A stretch of 64,000 bases of DNA, taken from assembly GCF_017901155.1 (NCBI RefSeq), contig NZ_CP072800.1, forward strand, positions 2,879,283-2,943,282, written 5' to 3'. The notes beneath the pieces were generated by a model that was not told where the DNA came from, made no database searches, and saw only the letters and a list, made by a program, of their open reading frames with translations. Below are positions 13,662-64,000 of this stretch, piece by piece (position 1 is the first letter of the stretch; the number at the start of each line of letters is the position of its first letter). The stretch is from Candidatus Thiothrix anitrata (GTDB lineage Bacteria > Pseudomonadota > Gammaproteobacteria > Thiotrichales > Thiotrichaceae). The translations under genes and the position numbers were made by a program.

Positions 13662-15528
<1,867 letters not shown>

Positions 15529-53186: not shown

Positions 53187-54244
53187 TCAAACCCCTCTAC
53201 GTTTTTCAACAGCTTCCGCCAACTGGTGCAACATCGCGTCAGTGGTATCCCAGTTAACGCAAGCGTCGGTAATGCTTTGCCCGTAAACCAATTCTTCGCG
53301 CTTTTTGCCGTCGGCTTTTTGATTGCCTTCGACCAAATGGCTTTCGATCATGACCCCGGCAATCGCTTTGCTACCGCCTGCAATTTGCGCTGCAACATCC
53401 GTCGCAACATCCGGTTGACGGCGGTAATCTTTGTAGCTGTTGGCATGGCTGAAATCGACCATCAAATACGGTGGCAAATTCACCTTTTTCAGGCTTTCCA
53501 CCGCAGCAGCAACGCTGGCAGCATCGTAATTCGGCTCGCGCCCACCGCGCAAAATCACATGACAGTCTTCATTGCCTTTGGTAGCAAAAATCGCCGTGCG
53601 CCCTTCCTTGGTCACTGACAGGAAATGGTGCGGGCGACTCGCCGCGCCAATCGCATCCACCGCGATATTCAGATTACCATTAGTACCATTTTTAAAGCCA
53701 ATCGGGCAGGAAATTCCCGAAGACAATTCGCGATGCCCCTGACTTTCGGTCGTCCGTGCTCCAATCGCCGCCCAACTGATCAAATCAGCAATGTATTGCG
53801 GGCTGATTAAATCCAAATATTCAGTCGCCGCTGGCATACCCTGATTATTCAAATCCAGCAATAACTTACGCGCAGTACGCAAGCCCTTATTGATGTGGAA
53901 ACTGTTATCCATATCCGGGTCATTGATCAAACCTTTCCAGCCAACCGTGGTACGCGGCTTTTCAAAGTAAACCCGCATAATGATGTGTAACTGATCTTTC
54001 AGGGAATGACGCAAATGCTGCAAGCGAGCTGCGTATTCCAACGCTGCATCCACATCATGAATCGAACAAGGCCCAGTGATAACCAGCAAACGATCATCCT
54101 CACCGTGTAAAATAGCGTGTGCCGCCTGACGTGCAAGATAAACCGTTTCGGTTGCCGCATCGGTCAGTGGGTATTCCCGGTGCAACTCCATCGGTGGAGC
54201 TAATTCGTGCATACCAATAATGCGCAAATCATCAGTCTGGTATT

Positions 54245-54248
<4 letters not shown>
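53187..54248 (-). CDS. aroG: 3-deoxy-7-phosphoheptulonate (DAHP) synthase, AroG type
   Basis: 353 residues, class I DAHP synthase of the E. coli AroG/F/H group; condenses PEP and erythrose 4-phosphate to open the shikimate pathway. Seen: [13 protein letters not shown] at the N-terminus, [77 protein letters not shown] and [13 protein letters not shown]. Start and hisG stop overlap by four bases (ATGA). Placement of aroG inside a histidine gene run is unusual and ties it translationally to hisG and hisD. Which aromatic amino acid inhibits it cannot be told. Confidence 0.96.
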
Positions 54249-56180
<1,932 letters not shown>

Positions 56181-56334
56181 TCAGCAAAAGGATGGAATAA
56201 TAGCGAAAAAGGCAACATTACGGAACTAAACGGGCGCGATACGCTTCTAATCTTGCAACATTGGGGAACTGATTTGACACGGCGAGGGCAAGCAAAGTGT
56301 TAAACGGTAAAAAACAAAACTGGGGTCACAATCA

Positions 56335-58830
56335 ATGATGGCAAAATTACGCCGCCCAAGAGGGAGTCGCATCCTTGCGCCCTTCCTGCTGCTGTTGGGC
56401 TTAACAACAACACACCATGCGAATGCATTTTACAACAGCACCTCGGCACTGGGCACGAACACCAACGAAATCATGGAAGATGACGCAAGTGCGCCGTTCA
56501 TTGATTTAATGAAAATGTCGCTACCATTTCGTGAAGCACGCCCCCTCACCAAAGGCGAAATCCAATACGACCGCTACGGTTGGCCACGCAGCATTGCGCC
56601 CGGCGGGCAAGCTGGCACGCGCATCCTCAATAAACTCCCGGCTGGCACGATTCCACGTGGCTTTTACACGGTACTCTACGAAGGCCAAGGCAAGCTTGAA
56701 TACGGCAACGATGCTTCGCTGGTGGAACACACGCCGGGGCGCGATGTGATATTAATTGACCCCGGCAAAGACAATGAACTCAGTGCCACACTGTTCATCA
56801 AAGCCACCAACCCCGCTAACCATTTACGCAATATCCGTATATTGCCACAGGGCGGGATTTGTGCGAGTAATCCGTTTCAGCGCGTCGCCAGTGCGGGGCA
56901 ATGCCAAGGCGATTACTGGTCGTTTGAACAGCATTCCAGCAAAATCATTTTTAACCCGGATTACCTGAAATACATGCGTGATTTCCGCGTGATTCGCTTT
57001 ATGAATATGAGCGGCATTACCCGCAACCCAGTGTATGCGTGGGAAGACCGTGCCAGCATTGACCAATCCACTTGGGGTGGCGCAGAAGGCATACGCGGCG
57101 CACCGATGGAAGTGATGGTGGAACTGGCGAACCGGTTGCACGCCGACCCGTGGTTTTCATTACCACACGCCGCCAGTGACGACTTTATCCGACGCTTTGC
57201 TGATTACGTAAAAGTGCATCTTGACCCCACCCTCAAGGTGTATGTGGAATACACCAACGAGGCTTGGAACGGCATATTCAACCAACACGCCTATGTCAAA
57301 CAACAAGGGATGCGCTTAGGGCTTGATCCCGACCCGTTGCAAGCCAGCTATAAGTTCTATTCGCAACGTTCTGTGGAAGTCTTTCGCATCTGGGAACAAA
57401 TCTTCGGTGGCAAAGAACGTTTAGTACGCGTCATGGGAGGCTTGATCGGTAGCACTCAAATGAGCAAAGCCATTTTAAATCACCAGGGTGCGTATCGTTC
57501 CACCGACGCTTACGCGGTTGCCCCGTATGTTTACGGCGACACCAAGGCGTTGCGTCAGGCACGCTCGGTGAGTGATATTTTCCGTATTATGACCGACCCC
57601 AAATACCCGCATTCCCTGCCCAATGAAATTGAGTTAATTCGCAAACAAGCCGATGTTGCCCGTAGTTTTGGAGTCGACTTAATTGCTTACGAGGGTGGGC
57701 AACACTTAGTGGACTGGAACACCAAATCCAACGATCAACACCCCAATAACTTGTTTTACCAAGCCAATCGCCACCCGCAAATGGGGGTGATCTACAAACG
57801 CTTGCTGGAAGGTTGGCGGCAAGCGGGGGGTAAATTATTCGTGCATTACACCTCGCCGCGTATTTACCAAAAATACGGCAGTTTTGGCGCGAAGGAGTTT
57901 ATTACCCAACCCGACAGCAAAGCACCCAAACATCAGGCCATGATCAACTTTTCACGCAGCAATCCGTGCTGGTGGGCGGGATGTGCCGGTAACAGCTTGG
58001 TACGCCACACCAAACCCGCCACCACCTTGGAGGCAATGAAAATCCAGTCAGAACCGCTGGATGCCACCGCGCCACAACACGAGCCGGTGCACGGTGAACC
58101 ACCACCATTCCCAATGGGTAACGTCACACCTGAACAAGAGTTCGTCATCAACAATCCAATACAGATAGCACGACCTGTTCCACCCCCACCAGCACAACGC
58201 GTCTTGGTGTCAATGCGTAACTCCCCCGGAGAACGTTACGTCAATGGCGGTAACGCCCTGATTCATTTACGACGCAATGGATCTGACCCTTGGCAGGGCG
58301 CGGCACATTACCTATTACGCACCGTAGCACACGGCAAAATTGATGGCATCCAAGACCTCGCCGCGTTATGGCAGGCAAGCTGGGATCAAAACAACCTTTA
58401 CCTGCGTATCGGAGTAGAAGACAACCGCTTTGTCGCTAATAGCACCGTACCTTGGCACAACGATTCCATCGAAGTGTATTTAGATGCCGACGGCTCATTT
58501 AACGGTCAATACGACGGACGCAACGACTTCCACTTCATCTTTGATATTGCCAATAACAAAGTGGCACTCGGCAAAAACTCCCCGCCGCAAGAACGTATTG
58601 CGCTGAACCAACGCGTGATCCGCGAAGGCCAAGGCTATGTACTGGAAGTCACCTTGCCTTGGAATTCGGTGAGGATGTCCCCTCGCCCCGGAATGCGCAT
58701 TGGGCTGGATGTGCACATCAATGACAACGACGGCACACCACAGCGCAAAGGCAAACTCACATGGCGAGCGCGAGAGGATGAAGCATGGCGCAACCCTGCG
58801 CTGTTCGGGCGCGTGATTTTGGGGGAATAA
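56335..58830 (+). CDS. Secreted glycosidase-like protein with C-terminal CBM9-like domain
   Basis: 831 residues. A Sec signal peptide (MMAKLRRPRGSRILAPFLLLL..., cut after HANA) leads to a ~520-residue domain homologous to the lipoprotein encoded at 19610: FYTVLYEGQGKLEYGN, IIFNPDYLKYMRDFRVIRFMN, VYVEYTNEAWN (Glu309, 57259-57261), LIAYEGGQHLV (Glu453, 57691-57693) and CWWAGC. The two Glu sit as in clan GH-A hydrolases. After a Pro-rich linker, residues about 640-831 match carbohydrate-binding family 9 (DGIQDLAALWQASWDQNNLYLRI; DSIEVYLDADGS; GYVLEVTLPWNSV; closing WRNPALFGRVIL). A polysaccharide-active secreted enzyme is the best reading, but no named GH family was recognised. Confidence 0.7.
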   Translation: MMAKLRRPRGSRILAPFLLLLGLTTTHHANAFYNSTSALGTNTNEIMEDDASAPFIDLMKMSLPFREARPLTKGEIQYDRYGWPRSIAPGGQAGTRILNKLPAGTIPRGFYTVLYEGQGKLEYGNDASLVEHTPGRDVILIDPGKDNELSATLFIKATNPANHLRNIRILPQGGICASNPFQRVASAGQCQGDYWSFEQHSSKIIFNPDYLKYMRDFRVIRFMNMSGITRNPVYAWEDRASIDQSTWGGAEGIRGAPMEVMVELANRLHADPWFSLPHAASDDFIRRFADYVKVHLDPTLKVYVEYTNEAWNGIFNQHAYVKQQGMRLGLDPDPLQASYKFYSQRSVEVFRIWEQIFGGKERLVRVMGGLIGSTQMSKAILNHQGAYRSTDAYAVAPYVYGDTKALRQARSVSDIFRIMTDPKYPHSLPNEIELIRKQADVARSFGVDLIAYEGGQHLVDWNTKSNDQHPNNLFYQANRHPQMGVIYKRLLEGWRQAGGKLFVHYTSPRIYQKYGSFGAKEFITQPDSKAPKHQAMINFSRSNPCWWAGCAGNSLVRHTKPATTLEAMKIQSEPLDATAPQHEPVHGEPPPFPMGNVTPEQEFVINNPIQIARPVPPPPAQRVLVSMRNSPGERYVNGGNALIHLRRNGSDPWQGAAHYLLRTVAHGKIDGIQDLAALWQASWDQNNLYLRIGVEDNRFVANSTVPWHNDSIEVYLDADGSFNGQYDGRNDFHFIFDIANNKVALGKNSPPQERIALNQRVIREGQGYVLEVTLPWNSVRMSPRPGMRIGLDVHINDNDGTPQRKGKLTWRAREDEAWRNPALFGRVILGE

Positions 58831-58849
58831 CTCCCCCAAGCTGGCGTTG

Positions 58850-59356
58850 TTAACTGGCGCGTGCTTTGTTAATAATCACGACCGGCGATTCGCAGAAAAT
58901 TGACAACTCAATCGCCGTTTCCACCGACTTTTGCGCGGAATGTCCTAAATGCAGGGCGGCAAGCGCGAAATCCATGCCCGCGCCGATCGCCTCATAGGTC
59001 AACACTTCTTCGATAAGCCAATGCTCGACCGCAAAGACTTTCCCCTCAAAACCGATGAGGTAGGAATTCTCGATGCGGGCGTGATTGGCTTTCTTGTTTT
59101 TCCACTCGGAAAACTCCGACAAAAACTCCAGCAACGCCTGCTCTGTTGCTGCTGCTGGCTTGCGCGTCGCCACAAACAGACGCAATAAACTGCTCTCTTC
59201 CGCCGAACCCACTGCACCAACCACCAAATCATTCACCTCAAACAACTTGGAATGACTAGTATTTTGCCCGCGTGTCTGCGTATGCCCACGCACCGTGATT
59301 GAGTCCGCCGCTATCTCATACCCCTCTTTCGTCACCCGACAAGCCACTACCGACAT
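58850..59356 (-). CDS. Proteasome/HslV-like Ntn hydrolase with Ser nucleophile
   Basis: 168 residues from ATG 59356, which has GGAGG with good spacing; an upstream in-frame start is unsupported. The N-terminus MSVVACRVTKEGYEIAADSITVRG aligns with the start of HslV and proteasome beta subunits after removal of Met: Ser at the nucleophile position instead of Thr, the Asp17 equivalent in AADS, Lys33 equivalent in SKLFEVNDLVVGAVGSAEE, and the GS/G turn. The rest keeps the beta-sandwich pattern (YLIGFEGKVFAVE; AIGAGMDFALAALHLG). An HslU-type ATPase is not nearby. A self-compartmentalised peptidase is plausible; substrate and partner are unknown. Confidence 0.7.
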   Translation of the reverse strand: MSVVACRVTKEGYEIAADSITVRGHTQTRGQNTSHSKLFEVNDLVVGAVGSAEESSLLRLFVATRKPAAATEQALLEFLSEFSEWKNKKANHARIENSYLIGFEGKVFAVEHWLIEEVLTYEAIGAGMDFALAALHLGHSAQKSVETAIELSIFCESPVVIINKARAS

Positions 59357-59486
59357 GTTCCACCTCCACTGCGTACAATCGGTGGATTGTAGCGCATTGT
59401 GGCGGGGTTGGTGGCAAATCCGAGGGCGAGCGCATATAAACGGTGGAGTTAACGACACTACCGATTTTAGCCGTTACGGAAAAACC

Positions 59487-60006
59487 ATGAGTGCCAGCCT
59501 GATAGATCACTTTTCGTCATTGGAAGATCCCCGGATAGAGCGTAACAAACGCCACGCGCTGTTGGACATACTGGTACTGGTGGTCAGTGCGGTATGCAGT
59601 AATGAATCCCAAAGATTGGGAGGCAATGGAAGATTTTGGACACGCCAAGCTGGATTGGCTGCGTCAGTACGTGCCGCTGGCGGTAGAGCGGGAATGCACC
59701 CAAGGCGACACGACCACGGTAGAAAGGCGTTTCTTCATCGCCTCCATCCCCGCTGATGCCAAACTATTTGCCAAGGCAGTCCGTGGGCATTGGGGGATTG
59801 AGAATACCCTGCACTGGCGACTGGATGTGACCTTCTCGGAAGATGCCAGCCGTATCCGCAAGGGAAATGGCCCCGCAATGATGACCAGCATCCGCCATCT
59901 GTGCATCAAGCTCTTTGAACGCGAAGACTCCAAACTCAGTTTACCCAAAAAGCAAAACAAAGCCGCATGGGATGATACCTACCGCGCCAAGGTCTTATTT
60001 GCGTGA
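59487..60006 (+). pseudogene. ISAs1-family transposase remnant
   Basis: Starts with MSASLIDHFSSLEDPRIERNKRHALLDILVLVVSAVC, the ISAs1 N-terminus, then shifts frame (+1) near 59605 into DWEAMEDFGHAKLDWLRQYVPL, and then jumps directly to the C-terminal part VERRFFIASIPADAKLFAKAVRGHWGIENTLHWRLDVTFSEDAS...GPAMMTSIRHL. About 200 residues with two of the DDE catalytic acids are missing. A frameshift and a large internal deletion make it inactive. The terminal repeats of the element could not be defined. Confidence 0.85.
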
Positions 60007-60021
60007 GAATCTATATGCGGT

Positions 60022-60053
60022 CGCCCTGACTCCAGCGTTGTGCAATCAGGGCG
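60022..60053. repeat. Inverted repeat downstream of the ISAs1 remnant
   Basis: CGCCCTGA (60022-60029) and TCAGGGCG (60046-60053) form an 8-bp stem with a 16-base loop. It may be an IS end or a transcript terminator. The ~250 bases between the transposase remnant and the next gene hold no other gene I can support. Confidence 0.4.
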
Positions 60054-60257
60054 CGTTCGGTAGAATTCATAGCATGGACTTAATGGTTGTTTTGAAGCTG
60101 CTATTATCGCCGGAAACGGCAACCCACGCTTCTTTTTTTCTTCAGCCGAAGGAAGGTTCACCCTGAAAATGTAATTTTGCAAGTGGCTCTTGTTTTATCA
60201 ACATCTGAAACGGCTAAGACCCCGAAACACATATAGATCCCACGAGGAAATAACGGC

Positions 60258-61760
60258 ATGAACCCTAAGCAGATTGATTTAAACAGGAGAAAGTCATCAG
60301 CCATCCTCAGTACTACATTATATGGATTAGGGCAAATTCCGCAACTCTCAAGACTGCCTGTTGAAGTCGATATTATTGAAATACGTGCGGATCTATATTC
60401 CCCTAATCTTGCAGAACTGCGAAAATCAACCTCATGCGCCCTGCTTTTTTCGATCAAAAGCCAATTCGAGGGTGGCAAATTCGGTGGTTCAAATCAAGAA
60501 CGTATTCAGCGTCTGATTGAGTCATCTACCTGTTACGACCTGATAGAACTAGAAGGAGAGCGTGACCTTGTTCCTGAAGTTTTAGAAGCTATTCCAGTAG
60601 AAAAAAGGATAATCTCTTGGCAGGGGAAGCCGGAAGATGATACAGCACTAATGGCGCGGCTGACCCATTACCAAAGAATACCTGCCAAGTATTACCGTTT
60701 GGTCATTCAAGCACAAAAATTCAACGATGGGTTGGCAGTGGTGCATTTGCTGACGAAGTACGAAAGTAATGATTTAATTACCTATGCCATCAACCAAATA
60801 GGTGTCTGGACTCAAGTATTAGCCCCTTTTCTTGGTTCCCCGCTGGTTCCTTCTTCCATAGAAACCAATGCCACAAATGTATATCATACACCTCAGCAAT
60901 TAATTGAAGATTACAACCTGCCCTCTATCTATTCTGTGCAAAAAATATTCGGAATAGTTGGTAACCCGGTACTGGGTTGTATCTCTCCAAGCCTACATAA
61001 CGCCGCATATCGGCAACTAAAACTACCTTACCTTTATCTTCCTTTTCAGGTTGATTCGCTTCCGCATTGCTTCGAAGCACTTGTTGATGATGAGCACCTA
61101 CCGTTTGCTGTTGGCGGTTTAACTGTGGTTTCTCCATTCAAAAACGATAGTCTGAAAATTGCCGGAAAAACTCACAACCCTGATGTTACCTTATCCAAAC
61201 ATGCCAATATTCTAGTGAACCATCAGGGCTGGGCTGCTTTAAGTACTGACCTCTTGGGTGCTATCGACGCATTGCATGAACTGGATTCAAACTGGCAGCA
61301 GAAGAAAATTGCCGTTATTGGCTGTGGAGGTACCGGACAAACCATTGCTGCCGGACTGAAAAGACTGGGGGTAAACCTAACCCTAGTCAACAGGACTGTC
61401 AGCAGCGGTATTGAGGTCGCTAGCAGCCTCAAAGTTGCCTTCACTCCATTGAATATTTTTAAACCACATTTTTTTGACATTATTATCCACGCGACACCGT
61501 TCGGGAAAAAAACGGGAGAACTTCCAATCGATGTGACCCAACTTACTCACCGCAATCGCGTTATTGAACACGTTTACTCATCGGACAAGAGCACTGGGTT
61601 AGTTGACTACTGCCAAACACACGGAATTAAGGTTATCGATGGAAAGCGGATAGCTAAACTTCAAACACGACACCAGTTCAAATTTATGACCGGCTTTGAT
61701 ATGAAGACCCGCGAACCTATCGCCCCAGATACTGAGGAAAAACAACATGAATACATCTGA
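60258..61760 (+). CDS. AroD-AroE fusion with degenerate dehydratase half
   Basis: 500 residues. The first ~225 align with type I 3-dehydroquinate dehydratase: VDIIEIRAD keeps Glu41/Arg43, but the catalytic His is Gln122 (ISWQGKP) and the Schiff-base Lys aligns with Arg147 (AKYYRLVIQAQ); the later substrate Arg is also lost. Residues ~233-490 align with shikimate dehydrogenase: GNPVLGCISPSLHNA, Lys in VVSPFKND, Asp in STDLLGAIDAL, NADP loop GCGGTGQTIAAGL with VNRT, and the late Gln in KLQTRHQF are kept. So the dehydrogenase half may work while the dehydratase half appears dead or repurposed. GAGGA precedes the ATG. The DNA is AT-richer than its neighbours. It overlaps the next gene by 14 bases. 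Confidence 0.82.
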   Translation: MNPKQIDLNRRKSSAILSTTLYGLGQIPQLSRLPVEVDIIEIRADLYSPNLAELRKSTSCALLFSIKSQFEGGKFGGSNQERIQRLIESSTCYDLIELEGERDLVPEVLEAIPVEKRIISWQGKPEDDTALMARLTHYQRIPAKYYRLVIQAQKFNDGLAVVHLLTKYESNDLITYAINQIGVWTQVLAPFLGSPLVPSSIETNATNVYHTPQQLIEDYNLPSIYSVQKIFGIVGNPVLGCISPSLHNAAYRQLKLPYLYLPFQVDSLPHCFEALVDDEHLPFAVGGLTVVSPFKNDSLKIAGKTHNPDVTLSKHANILVNHQGWAALSTDLLGAIDALHELDSNWQQKKIAVIGCGGTGQTIAAGLKRLGVNLTLVNRTVSSGIEVASSLKVAFTPLNIFKPHFFDIIIHATPFGKKTGELPIDVTQLTHRNRVIEHVYSSDKSTGLVDYCQTHGIKVIDGKRIAKLQTRHQFKFMTGFDMKTREPIAPDTEEKQHEYI

Positions 61761-62967
61761 CCTGAGATATACAGACAGCCCCACACCAGAGATAGAAATA
61801 GATATCTTGTCAGCGATCAGGAAACTGACCAGTGAAGAGTTTGCCCCGCGTGCGAAGCAATACGATAACAGCTACACATTCCCCATAGAAAACATGCAGG
61901 CTTTATTTCGCGTGGGATTAAATGCAGCTACTATCTCCAATGAATTTGGTGGTTTGGGGCTAAGCAACAATAAAGGCAACATTCGCTTACTTTGGTCGAT
62001 GATTACTGAGGTCGCTAAAGCCGACATGTCAACCGCACGCTGCTGGGAAGGTCATAATAATGCCATGATGCTGATTGATAACCTAGGCACTGACGTACAG
62101 AAAGACCAATGGTTTCAAGGTATCGTAGAGCGTGGAGAACTATGGGCCGTGTGGAGCGGCGAGCCACTTCTAAAGACACCAGGTCAAACGCAAAAACTGG
62201 GTACCTCGCTGGTACAAACGGAAGACGGCTACTTGCTCAATGGCACAAAAGTCTTTTGTACCGGAGCAACCCATGTCAATAAGGCCATTTTACTGGTCAA
62301 TACTGCGGGAGCCGGTGGCGCACGCCATGCTTCCGATTCACCCGAGTCTGTCGTTATGCTAGCTTGTGATCTTGCTGATGCCACTGTGTCATACGATGAT
62401 TCTTGGTGGAAACCTATAGGTATGCGTGGCTCCGTAAGCTGTCTAGTGAAGTTTGACAATACTTTTATTCCATTTGAGAACCAGATTGGCGAGCCAGGAC
62501 AATTTTTGAAAGAGGAATGGCAAACGTACTGGACACCGCAATATGCGGCTACTTTTCTGGGGGCAGCAGAAGCTGCATACGATTACACCTTATCCTATGT
62601 TAAAAATCAGCATCGGCAAAACGATCCCTTTATACAACAACGGGTTGCAAAAATGCGCATGAATATTCAGTCCGCCCACATGTGGCTAGACCATGTCGCG
62701 GCTTTATGGCGGGACAAACGCCTAGAAGAAGCCAAGCTGGCTGGCAACATGGCGCGTTATCAGATAGAACAACTGGCCACTCAAACCGTTGATCACGCAA
62801 CCCATGCCTGTGGTGCACGAGCCCTGATTCAGCCTAGCTCACTCGAAAGGATTTTACGAGACTTGTCTATTTATGTCCGCCACGATAATGATGACCATGT
62901 ATTGGCAACCATTGGCAAATCCCTGCTGGGAGAAAGCCATGATTCCTCTTTTTTCAATAGCAAGTAA
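61747..62967 (+). CDS. Acyl-CoA-dehydrogenase-fold flavoenzyme (possibly DszC-like)
   Basis: 406 residues with the three-domain ACAD fold: helical N-terminus with EFAPRAKQYD and FPIENMQALFRVGLNAATISNEFGGLGL, a beta domain with GYLLNGTKVFCTGATHVNKAILLV and WWKPIGMRGS, and a helical C-terminus with TQTVDHATHACGARALIQPSSLERILRDLSIY. The usual catalytic Glu region (EGT-type motif) is replaced by VRHDNDDHVLATIGKSLLG, which recalls flavin-dependent monooxygenases and dehydrogenases of the DszC kind. GAGGAA lies seven bases before the ATG. It is translationally coupled to the AroD-AroE fusion, suggesting a shared non-housekeeping pathway. The substrate is unknown. Confidence 0.75.
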   Translation: MNTSDLRYTDSPTPEIEIDILSAIRKLTSEEFAPRAKQYDNSYTFPIENMQALFRVGLNAATISNEFGGLGLSNNKGNIRLLWSMITEVAKADMSTARCWEGHNNAMMLIDNLGTDVQKDQWFQGIVERGELWAVWSGEPLLKTPGQTQKLGTSLVQTEDGYLLNGTKVFCTGATHVNKAILLVNTAGAGGARHASDSPESVVMLACDLADATVSYDDSWWKPIGMRGSVSCLVKFDNTFIPFENQIGEPGQFLKEEWQTYWTPQYAATFLGAAEAAYDYTLSYVKNQHRQNDPFIQQRVAKMRMNIQSAHMWLDHVAALWRDKRLEEAKLAGNMARYQIEQLATQTVDHATHACGARALIQPSSLERILRDLSIYVRHDNDDHVLATIGKSLLGESHDSSFFNSK

Positions 62968-63041
62968 GTAACTAGAAATTTTCACGTATAAGATTCCGCT
63001 GATGTAAACTGATGACCTGTCTCCCAAGAATGTCCGTGTCG

Positions 63042-63850
63042 ATGAAATTTGCTCAACCTATCCCTGAAGAAATCCGCATCACCTTGCAGGAGATGTATAT
63101 GAATCACCCAACGTTCCGTTGCCCTCAACGCGCCCAAGCGATCCTGTTGAGTGTACGTGACGACCGTCCGCGCTCTGGTTGCCCACGGATATACACAGAA
63201 GCCGAAGAGGAAATGCTGAAAACCTTGGTGGAGGAAGAACCGCGCCAAATCAAGACTGCCCAAACCAAACTGGCTGATATGACCCAGAAAGTAGCCAGTA
63301 CCAGCACATTGAAACGCTTGTTAAAAAAAATCCCACTACCTCTGGAAGCGGATGCGTAAGTCATTGAAAGATAAGCGTGACCCAGTGGCTTTTGAGCGTG
63401 AGAAAGAAATTCAAGCCTTTCTCCATCAGCAAGTGGCAGCTGGCAAGTTGCGAATTTACTATTTCGATGGTTCAGGTTTCACCACTACCCCTTGTGTCCC
63501 TTACGGGTGGCAGAAATGAGGAGAAACACGCAGACTACCTACGGCTCATAGCAAACGCTTGAATATCTTAGGATTTATGAGCTTGAACAACGACAGTTTT
63601 TTCCACACAGTGGAAGGGCACGTTGATTCACAAGCCACCATTACCGCCTTTGATGCTTTTACTGCGCGTTATGCCGAAGAATTTGCACAAACAAAGATAC
63701 CTTGTTTAGTTATTCTGGATAATGCTCAATATCTCCCGCAATCTGGTTTCGGATTGGGAACGGGGAGTAAAAAAACCGGGCGGGCCAGCTTTACGTTTGC
63801 TGGGGATTGTGCAGAAGCATGGTTTGACAGCGTTGATTTAGGCGATTGAC
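63042..63850 (+). pseudogene. IS630-family transposase remnant
   Basis: MKFAQPIPEEIRITLQEMY opens the transposase, but the HTH part is missing (sequence jumps to DDRPRSGCPRIYTEAEEEML). After an A8 run at about 63323-63330 the frame moves +1 into YLWKRMRKSLKDKRDPVAFEREKEIQAFL and YFDGSGFTTTPCVPYGW; an in-frame TGA (63517-63519) then interrupts before LNILGFMSLNNDSFFHT and LVILDNAQ, after which homology fades. The deletion plus nonsense codon show it is dead, although the A8 shift itself could once have been programmed, as in several IS630 members. Confidence 0.85.
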
Positions 63851-63866
63851 GATTGGGCAGGTCACA

Positions 63867-64000
63867 TCAACCTTTGGCAGTTAACACCCGAAACCCTGCC
63901 TGATCAAAATGCTTGTCAAACGCCAAGGCAGTGGTGAGCTTCATTTCACGCATGACAACGAATGACAGACAATCGACCATTCCCCATTCTTTATCCTTGT
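63867..64000 (-). CDS. C-terminal end of a PIN-domain (VapC-like) toxin, cut by window edge
   Basis: The last 43 codons of a minus-strand gene are present. They read KEWGMVDCLSFVVM, then a helix-loop with LTTALAFDKHFDQAGFRVL: the conserved C-terminal Asp residues and the D-x-HF-x-QAGF motif of PIN-domain ribonucleases. The start, the first catalytic Asp and any antitoxin lie beyond the window. Confidence 0.75.
   Translation of the reverse strand, partial: KDKEWGMVDCLSFVVMREMKLTTALAFDKHFDQAGFRVLTAKG

Follow-up and report, generated by a model that had tools for sequence, protein, structure and literature searches.

What two overlapping genes enclosed by decayed insertion sequences do, and how they came to stand there, is the question raised by one end of the window, the 64,000-bp stretch of the Candidatus Thiothrix anitrata genome (one contig of 3.55 Mb) analysed here. 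The first gene (60258..61760, forward strand) encodes a 500-aa AroD-AroE-like fusion (AroDE), with a 3-dehydroquinase (DHQase)-like part at about 60342-60869 and a shikimate dehydrogenase (SDH)-like part at about 60942-61700; its DHquinase_I, Shikimate_dh_N and Shikimate_DH domains all score above the Pfam cut-offs. The second (61747..62967, forward strand) encodes a 406-aa ACAD-fold flavoenzyme (model pLDDT 92.2), in which Acyl-CoA_dh_N, _1 and _2 were found above the cut-off and _M below it. Both reading frames are open, overlap by 14 nt and have purine-rich stretches upstream of their ATG codons. An earlier sequence-only reading of this DNA had described an overlapping pair that is richer in AT than the flanking genes, and both points hold: the pair is intact and overlapping, and its GC content is 45.4%, against 52.4% for positions 54001-59426 and 50.0% for the window. 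The pair is not the sole AT-rich stretch, since 9 of 613 windows of equal size are equally AT-rich. Among the 36 ORFs of at least 250 aa (mean GC3 0.530, sd 0.068), AroDE has the lowest GC3 (0.402), while that of the flavoenzyme (0.466) is less than 1 sd from the mean; the composition signal is clear for AroDE and weak for its partner.

The pair is part of a 6.4-kb insertion (59427-65842, of which 59427..64000 falls within the window). Alignment to the corresponding locus L095 of a sister genome, G010, ends at window position 59426 and restarts at 65843, and the flanks are 16 bp apart in G010 versus 6.4 kb here, so that the additional DNA corresponds to an empty site in the sister genome. The left neighbour gene (58850..59458, reverse strand) is 97% identical in G010, where a TrpB-like gene follows it after 87 bp. 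No target-site duplication was seen at the two insertion ends.

The pair had also been placed between an ISAs1 remnant on the left and an IS630 remnant on the right, which the profile searches confirmed, the latter being the weaker name of the two. The ISAs1-family transposase remnant (59487..60006, forward strand) is internally deleted and spread over two frames: an N-terminal piece (DDE_Tnp_1_assoc) starts at 59487, and a C-terminal piece in the other frame (59587-60006) scores 112.4 bits with NF033564 (cut-off 70), matching only profile positions 236-313 of 314. The IS630-family-like remnant (63012..63849, forward strand) comprises two collinear ORFs, 63012-63359 and 63559-63849, which match positions 44-108 and 184-234 of NF033545 with 21.9 and 17.5 bits, far under the cut-off of 100; HTH_32 and DDE_3 were also below cut-off. 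A composite transposon, which needs two copies of one insertion sequence, was rejected, given that two different and decayed elements are present; these do not reveal the element that carried the pair in. The same insertion contains a PIN-domain gene (L089:5150-5614, window 63867-64331) and a Fic/DOC-like piece (L089:6124-6603). Just past the window, a TrpB-like gene (L089:7127-8722) and its partial second copy (14023-14532) flank a 1455-aa protein with what we read as WD40-like repeats, a duplication that suggests further rearrangement. On the other side, positions 56335-58830 encode an 831-aa protein, common to the sister genome, with a C-terminal CBM9 and no other Pfam match.

The proposal that the pair was acquired is borne out by the empty site in the sister genome together with the taxonomic distribution of AroDE. 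The relatives searched comprised 95 genomes (the source, 15 of its genus, 44 more of its family and 35 of its class), and at E 1e-15 AroDE was found in none of the 94 others; vertical synteny in all relatives, which the sequence-only reading had put forward as the opposite outcome, was checked and is not seen. A wider search of the class revealed fused AroDE proteins in five further genomes; they are 24-28% identical to the window protein and on the tree fall outside its family. A profile search across 398 genomes of the phylum, which scored at most three candidates per genome among the matches listed, found the family only in the source and in none of the 397 others. Cargo of phages or plasmids was rejected as the origin on the following searches: peptide-pattern scans of viral contigs, of limited reach, returned no relative of either protein, and phages gave no nucleotide match. 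Among plasmids, the window AroDE matched 35 records, none covering 80% of the protein (the 20 listed of the 35 are AroE-like, covering about half the protein at <30% identity), and two members of the AroDE family gave nothing at E 1e-20. For the flavoenzyme, the closest plasmid-borne relatives are proteins on two cyanobacterial plasmids (54-55%), and no AroDE was seen near either.

A species-level genome collection was scanned with the window flavoenzyme and the two cyanobacterial plasmid proteins. This yielded 75 loci, many of them from metagenome bins, chosen by the patterns WW[KEQ]PIGM or [LT]ARCWEGH. An AroDE relative was found in 46 of them. In 45 it lies directly upstream of the flavoenzyme on the same strand, with 31-1118 bp between match ends; the remaining locus has it 3.3 kb downstream, on the opposite strand. 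A further 21 loci with enough flanking sequence have no AroDE (L088, only a 25% match, among them), and 8 are too short to show whether they have one. The paired loci come from seven phylum-level groups, namely Bacteroidota, Pseudomonadota, Acidobacteriota, Actinomycetota, Chlorobiota, Verrucomicrobiota and SAR324. Other genomes share the order and strand at 45 of the 75 loci, which is more than chance, and the two genes form a real unit.

The histories of the two proteins are congruent. In trees of both, which are quick trees with one kind of support, the window protein stands beside that of L014 from Oceanospirillales (support 89 and 93); the clade around them is mostly flavobacterial (96 and 100). 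Pairwise distances of AroDE and flavoenzyme correlate with r 0.94 over 43 rows, a value inflated by kinship that none of 2000 permutations reached; inside three clades r is 0.75-0.83 (5, 0 and 0 of 2000 permutations as high). The flavoenzyme alignment comprises the window protein and 73 of the 78 loci L011-L088 (L013, L082, L083, L087 and L088 being left out); its tree also omits L055, and the AroDE tree omits L060 and L064. Alignments A4, A5 and A6 hold 45 of 74, 24 of 47 and 15 of 34 rows, respectively.

The suggestion of a private two-gene system did not stand, because many other genomes hold the pair in a larger cluster. Gene neighbourhoods, annotated from representatives, were counted in 46 loci with AroDE and 30 without. 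A small barrel protein, F0, often in two tandem copies, occurs in 32 loci with AroDE versus 16 without; SsuD/SfnG-like luciferase-type oxygenases in 17 versus 6; an FMN reductase (SsuE/MsuE-like) in 9 versus 4; and PhyH and a GT4-type glycosyltransferase in 10 versus 3 each. SCO1 (15 loci), a cytochrome c/binding protein (13) and an MnxG-like multicopper oxidase (12) recur beside AroDE and were found in one locus each without it. F0 is predicted to form an eight-stranded barrel (pLDDT 88.5), and its matches to calycins are only weak (best Foldseek E 3.7e-3).

A further family, F4, joins a low-molecular-weight (LMW) phosphatase-like domain to a transporter-like protein, and after a motif check 29 of the 46 paired loci have it, against 2 of the 30 that lack AroDE; a first tally of 31/46 had taken in L014, which has a plain ABC ATPase, and L061, which has no CX5R motif. 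That motif is present in 31 of 34 F4 ORFs, of which 4 also carry an ABC ATPase motif and 27 do not. The N-terminal part of F4, for which Pfam gave LMWPc only, is read here as an EamA-like transporter. Fusions of an ABC ATPase with the phosphatase-like domain occur in L028, L053, L074 and L079 (motifs in all four, Pfam matches in L079 and L028); in L053, L074 and L079 they come after WtpA-/ModB-like genes, those in L079 scoring under the model cut-offs. On an ABC ATPase the phosphatase-like domain is possibly an oxyanion-sensing domain.

Another arrangement is seen in cyanobacteria, where the flavoenzyme lies near a NifE-like gene, an opine-type dehydrogenase and TonB/Fec-type uptake genes (L020, L022, L026, L027, L031, L036, L038, L082 and other loci). 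No AroDE was found in these loci. Among cyanobacterial loci without AroDE, the opine-type dehydrogenase and the NifE-like gene were each counted in ten; the NifE-like protein of L020 is above its equivalog cut-off, and the opine-type dehydrogenase was tested in L022. This replacement is limited to cyanobacteria, and therefore may represent a single event.

The source genome holds a stripped core of the cluster, whether working or passenger. Three FMN_red genes are present in it. The F0 barrel gene was not found, in a search without positive control; nor were luciferase-type genes, in a search that detected 10 of 14 controls; and of the fused phosphatase only a stand-alone domain was found (32.6 bits). 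Since these partners were not found, the pair may be a decaying passenger, that is, a cluster fragment dropped into a site rich in insertion sequences, with both genes still open and useful for nothing. The decay of the neighbouring IS remnants, and the PIN gene and Fic-like piece carried by the same insertion, are consistent with this explanation, which is nevertheless on the unlikely side: both frames remain open over 900 codons with their translational overlap kept, the SDH catalytic residues and the invariant residues of the flavoenzyme are preserved, and in 11 of the 45 other pairs, too, the genes are separated by <300 bp. We infer that the shortened version in T. anitrata still works.

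The chemistry of the flavoenzyme is the second point on which readings diverge. His379-Asp380 is present in 74 of 74 rows; the invariance of residues within the motif patterns by which the loci were picked, His103 included, is partly a product of selection, from which His379-Asp380 is exempt. Rat SCAD has Tyr-Glu at these positions, with Asp380 aligned to Glu368. We take DszC to have a His-Asp near its C-terminus; 5z8t has none at the aligned columns. With the family profile, 5z8t, titled a flavin-containing monooxygenase, ranked first (124.8 bits), ahead of 5gj7, labelled ACAD type 2 (124.7 bits), the next entry scoring 97. A single-sequence search placed SCAD first, and the Foldseek fold search returned a mixture of ACADs and monooxygenases headed by true ACADs.

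The flavoenzyme could accordingly be a true dehydrogenase that uses Asp380 as its base and desaturates or aromatises the ring acid that the AroE-like half produces or consumes. Its ACAD Pfam domains, SCAD as top single-sequence match and the position of Asp380 opposite the SCAD Glu are all compatible with such a role. The leading place of a flavin monooxygenase in the family profile ranking, the recurrence of FMN reductase and luciferase-type genes nearby, and the fact that inspection of the general neighbourhood lists brought up no CoA-ligase or ETF gene beside the pairs speak against it, and true dehydrogenase chemistry appears rather improbable. Judged by these comparisons, the resemblance to FMNH2 monooxygenases looks slightly stronger than that to acyl-CoA dehydrogenases, a preference that is not decisive.

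The two halves of AroDE differ in conservation. Over 47 rows, Lys295, Asp331 and Asn317 of the SDH half are each present in 46 and Gln473 in all; the window protein has Lys295 and Asp331, at what we take to be the positions of the catalytic Lys and Asp of shikimate dehydrogenase. At one position of this half, presumably shikimate-binding, it has Cys, versus Ser in 45 of 47 rows. In the DHQase half, His122 is present in 20 of 47 rows (one gap), Lys147 in 15 and both in 6, whereas the window protein has Gln122 and Arg147; these we take to be the positions of the catalytic His and Schiff-base Lys of type I 3-dehydroquinase. Six rows with both residues mean that the loss is not family-wide, although in the window protein the usual activity of this half seems to be gone. 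All three equivalog scores for AroDE are under the cut-offs (113.8 vs 598 for the bifunctional model NF006802, 120.7 vs 200.2 for aroE and 52.2 vs 139.3).

The sequence-only reading had set the pair outside the primary shikimate pathway, and the genome does encode a separate aroE (255.7 bits) and a type II DHQase (190 bits) elsewhere. That AroDE is a backup enzyme of this pathway beside an unrelated neighbour, for which its AroD and AroE domain matches could be cited, is very improbable and was rejected on the equivalog scores, the lost DHQase residues, these separate enzymes and the conserved linkage to the flavoenzyme.

The best explanation, whose chances we consider evenly balanced, is that the pair is a horizontally acquired, relocated core of a patchily distributed specialised-metabolism cluster and reduces and oxygenates a shikimate-like acid. 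The AroE-like half would reduce or oxidise, with NAD(P)H, a 3-dehydroshikimate-like cyclic acid that bears a keto or hydroxy group; such a substrate is the best available reading because the SDH half is conserved. The AroD-like half would here no longer dehydrate dehydroquinate and may be kept in a binding or structural role. The flavoenzyme would oxygenate the same or the next intermediate, drawing reduced flavin from a separate reductase.

A wider reading, speculative and improbable, is that the pair belongs to a mobile biosynthetic system, spread over several phyla, whose product is a small molecule that chelates or carries a metal that forms oxyanions (Mo, W or V). A retooled AroDE and the ACAD-fold oxygenase would build this molecule, the small calycin-like barrels would bind it, and the transporters fused to phosphatase-like domains would move or sense it. 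Under this chelator reading, the cyanobacterial loci, where the flavoenzyme has no AroDE but is accompanied by NifE, an opine-type dehydrogenase and uptake genes of siderophore type, would mark the reductase as the exchangeable part.

The finding is larger than first described, being an acquired part of a patchy cluster without match in the literature searched. The statement that no such system is known agrees with our literature text searches, which covered listings with the beginnings of abstracts and returned no description of the pair or cluster, an agreement short of proof. If the explanation of the pair as a relocated cluster core is true, there is a branch of the AroDE fold in which half of the classical chemistry has largely gone and which often accompanies an oxygenase-like flavoenzyme; clusters of this kind range from Streptomyces to Acidobacteriota and Flavobacteriaceae. 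The linkage of AroDE and flavoenzyme offers a marker for mining such clusters, as well as a concrete two-enzyme assay.

Among known systems, AlnG, which an excerpt of a paper on alanosine biosynthesis (PMC7347517) describes as a putative ACAD-like N-hydroxylase, resembles the flavoenzyme as an ACAD-like flavoprotein proposed to be an oxygenase in a specialised-metabolite cluster, a likeness by description only. The ACAD-fold FMNH2 monooxygenases DszC, TdsC, MsuC and 5z8t share its fold (92, 84, 83 and 125 bits with the profile), but it scores far below the DszC model cut-off (54.9 vs 850). Acyl-CoA dehydrogenases such as SCAD share the fold and three Pfam domains, but their catalytic Glu is replaced by Asp380. 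The best solved relative of AroDE is the plant DHD-SDH 2gpt; with it, as with the bacterial proteins of NF006802, AroDE shares the order of the domains and the catalytic residues of the SDH half. Five of five canonical DHQase/SDH fusions of the class keep both the DHQase Lys and His, whereas the window AroDE, in which both are replaced, forms a separate branch.
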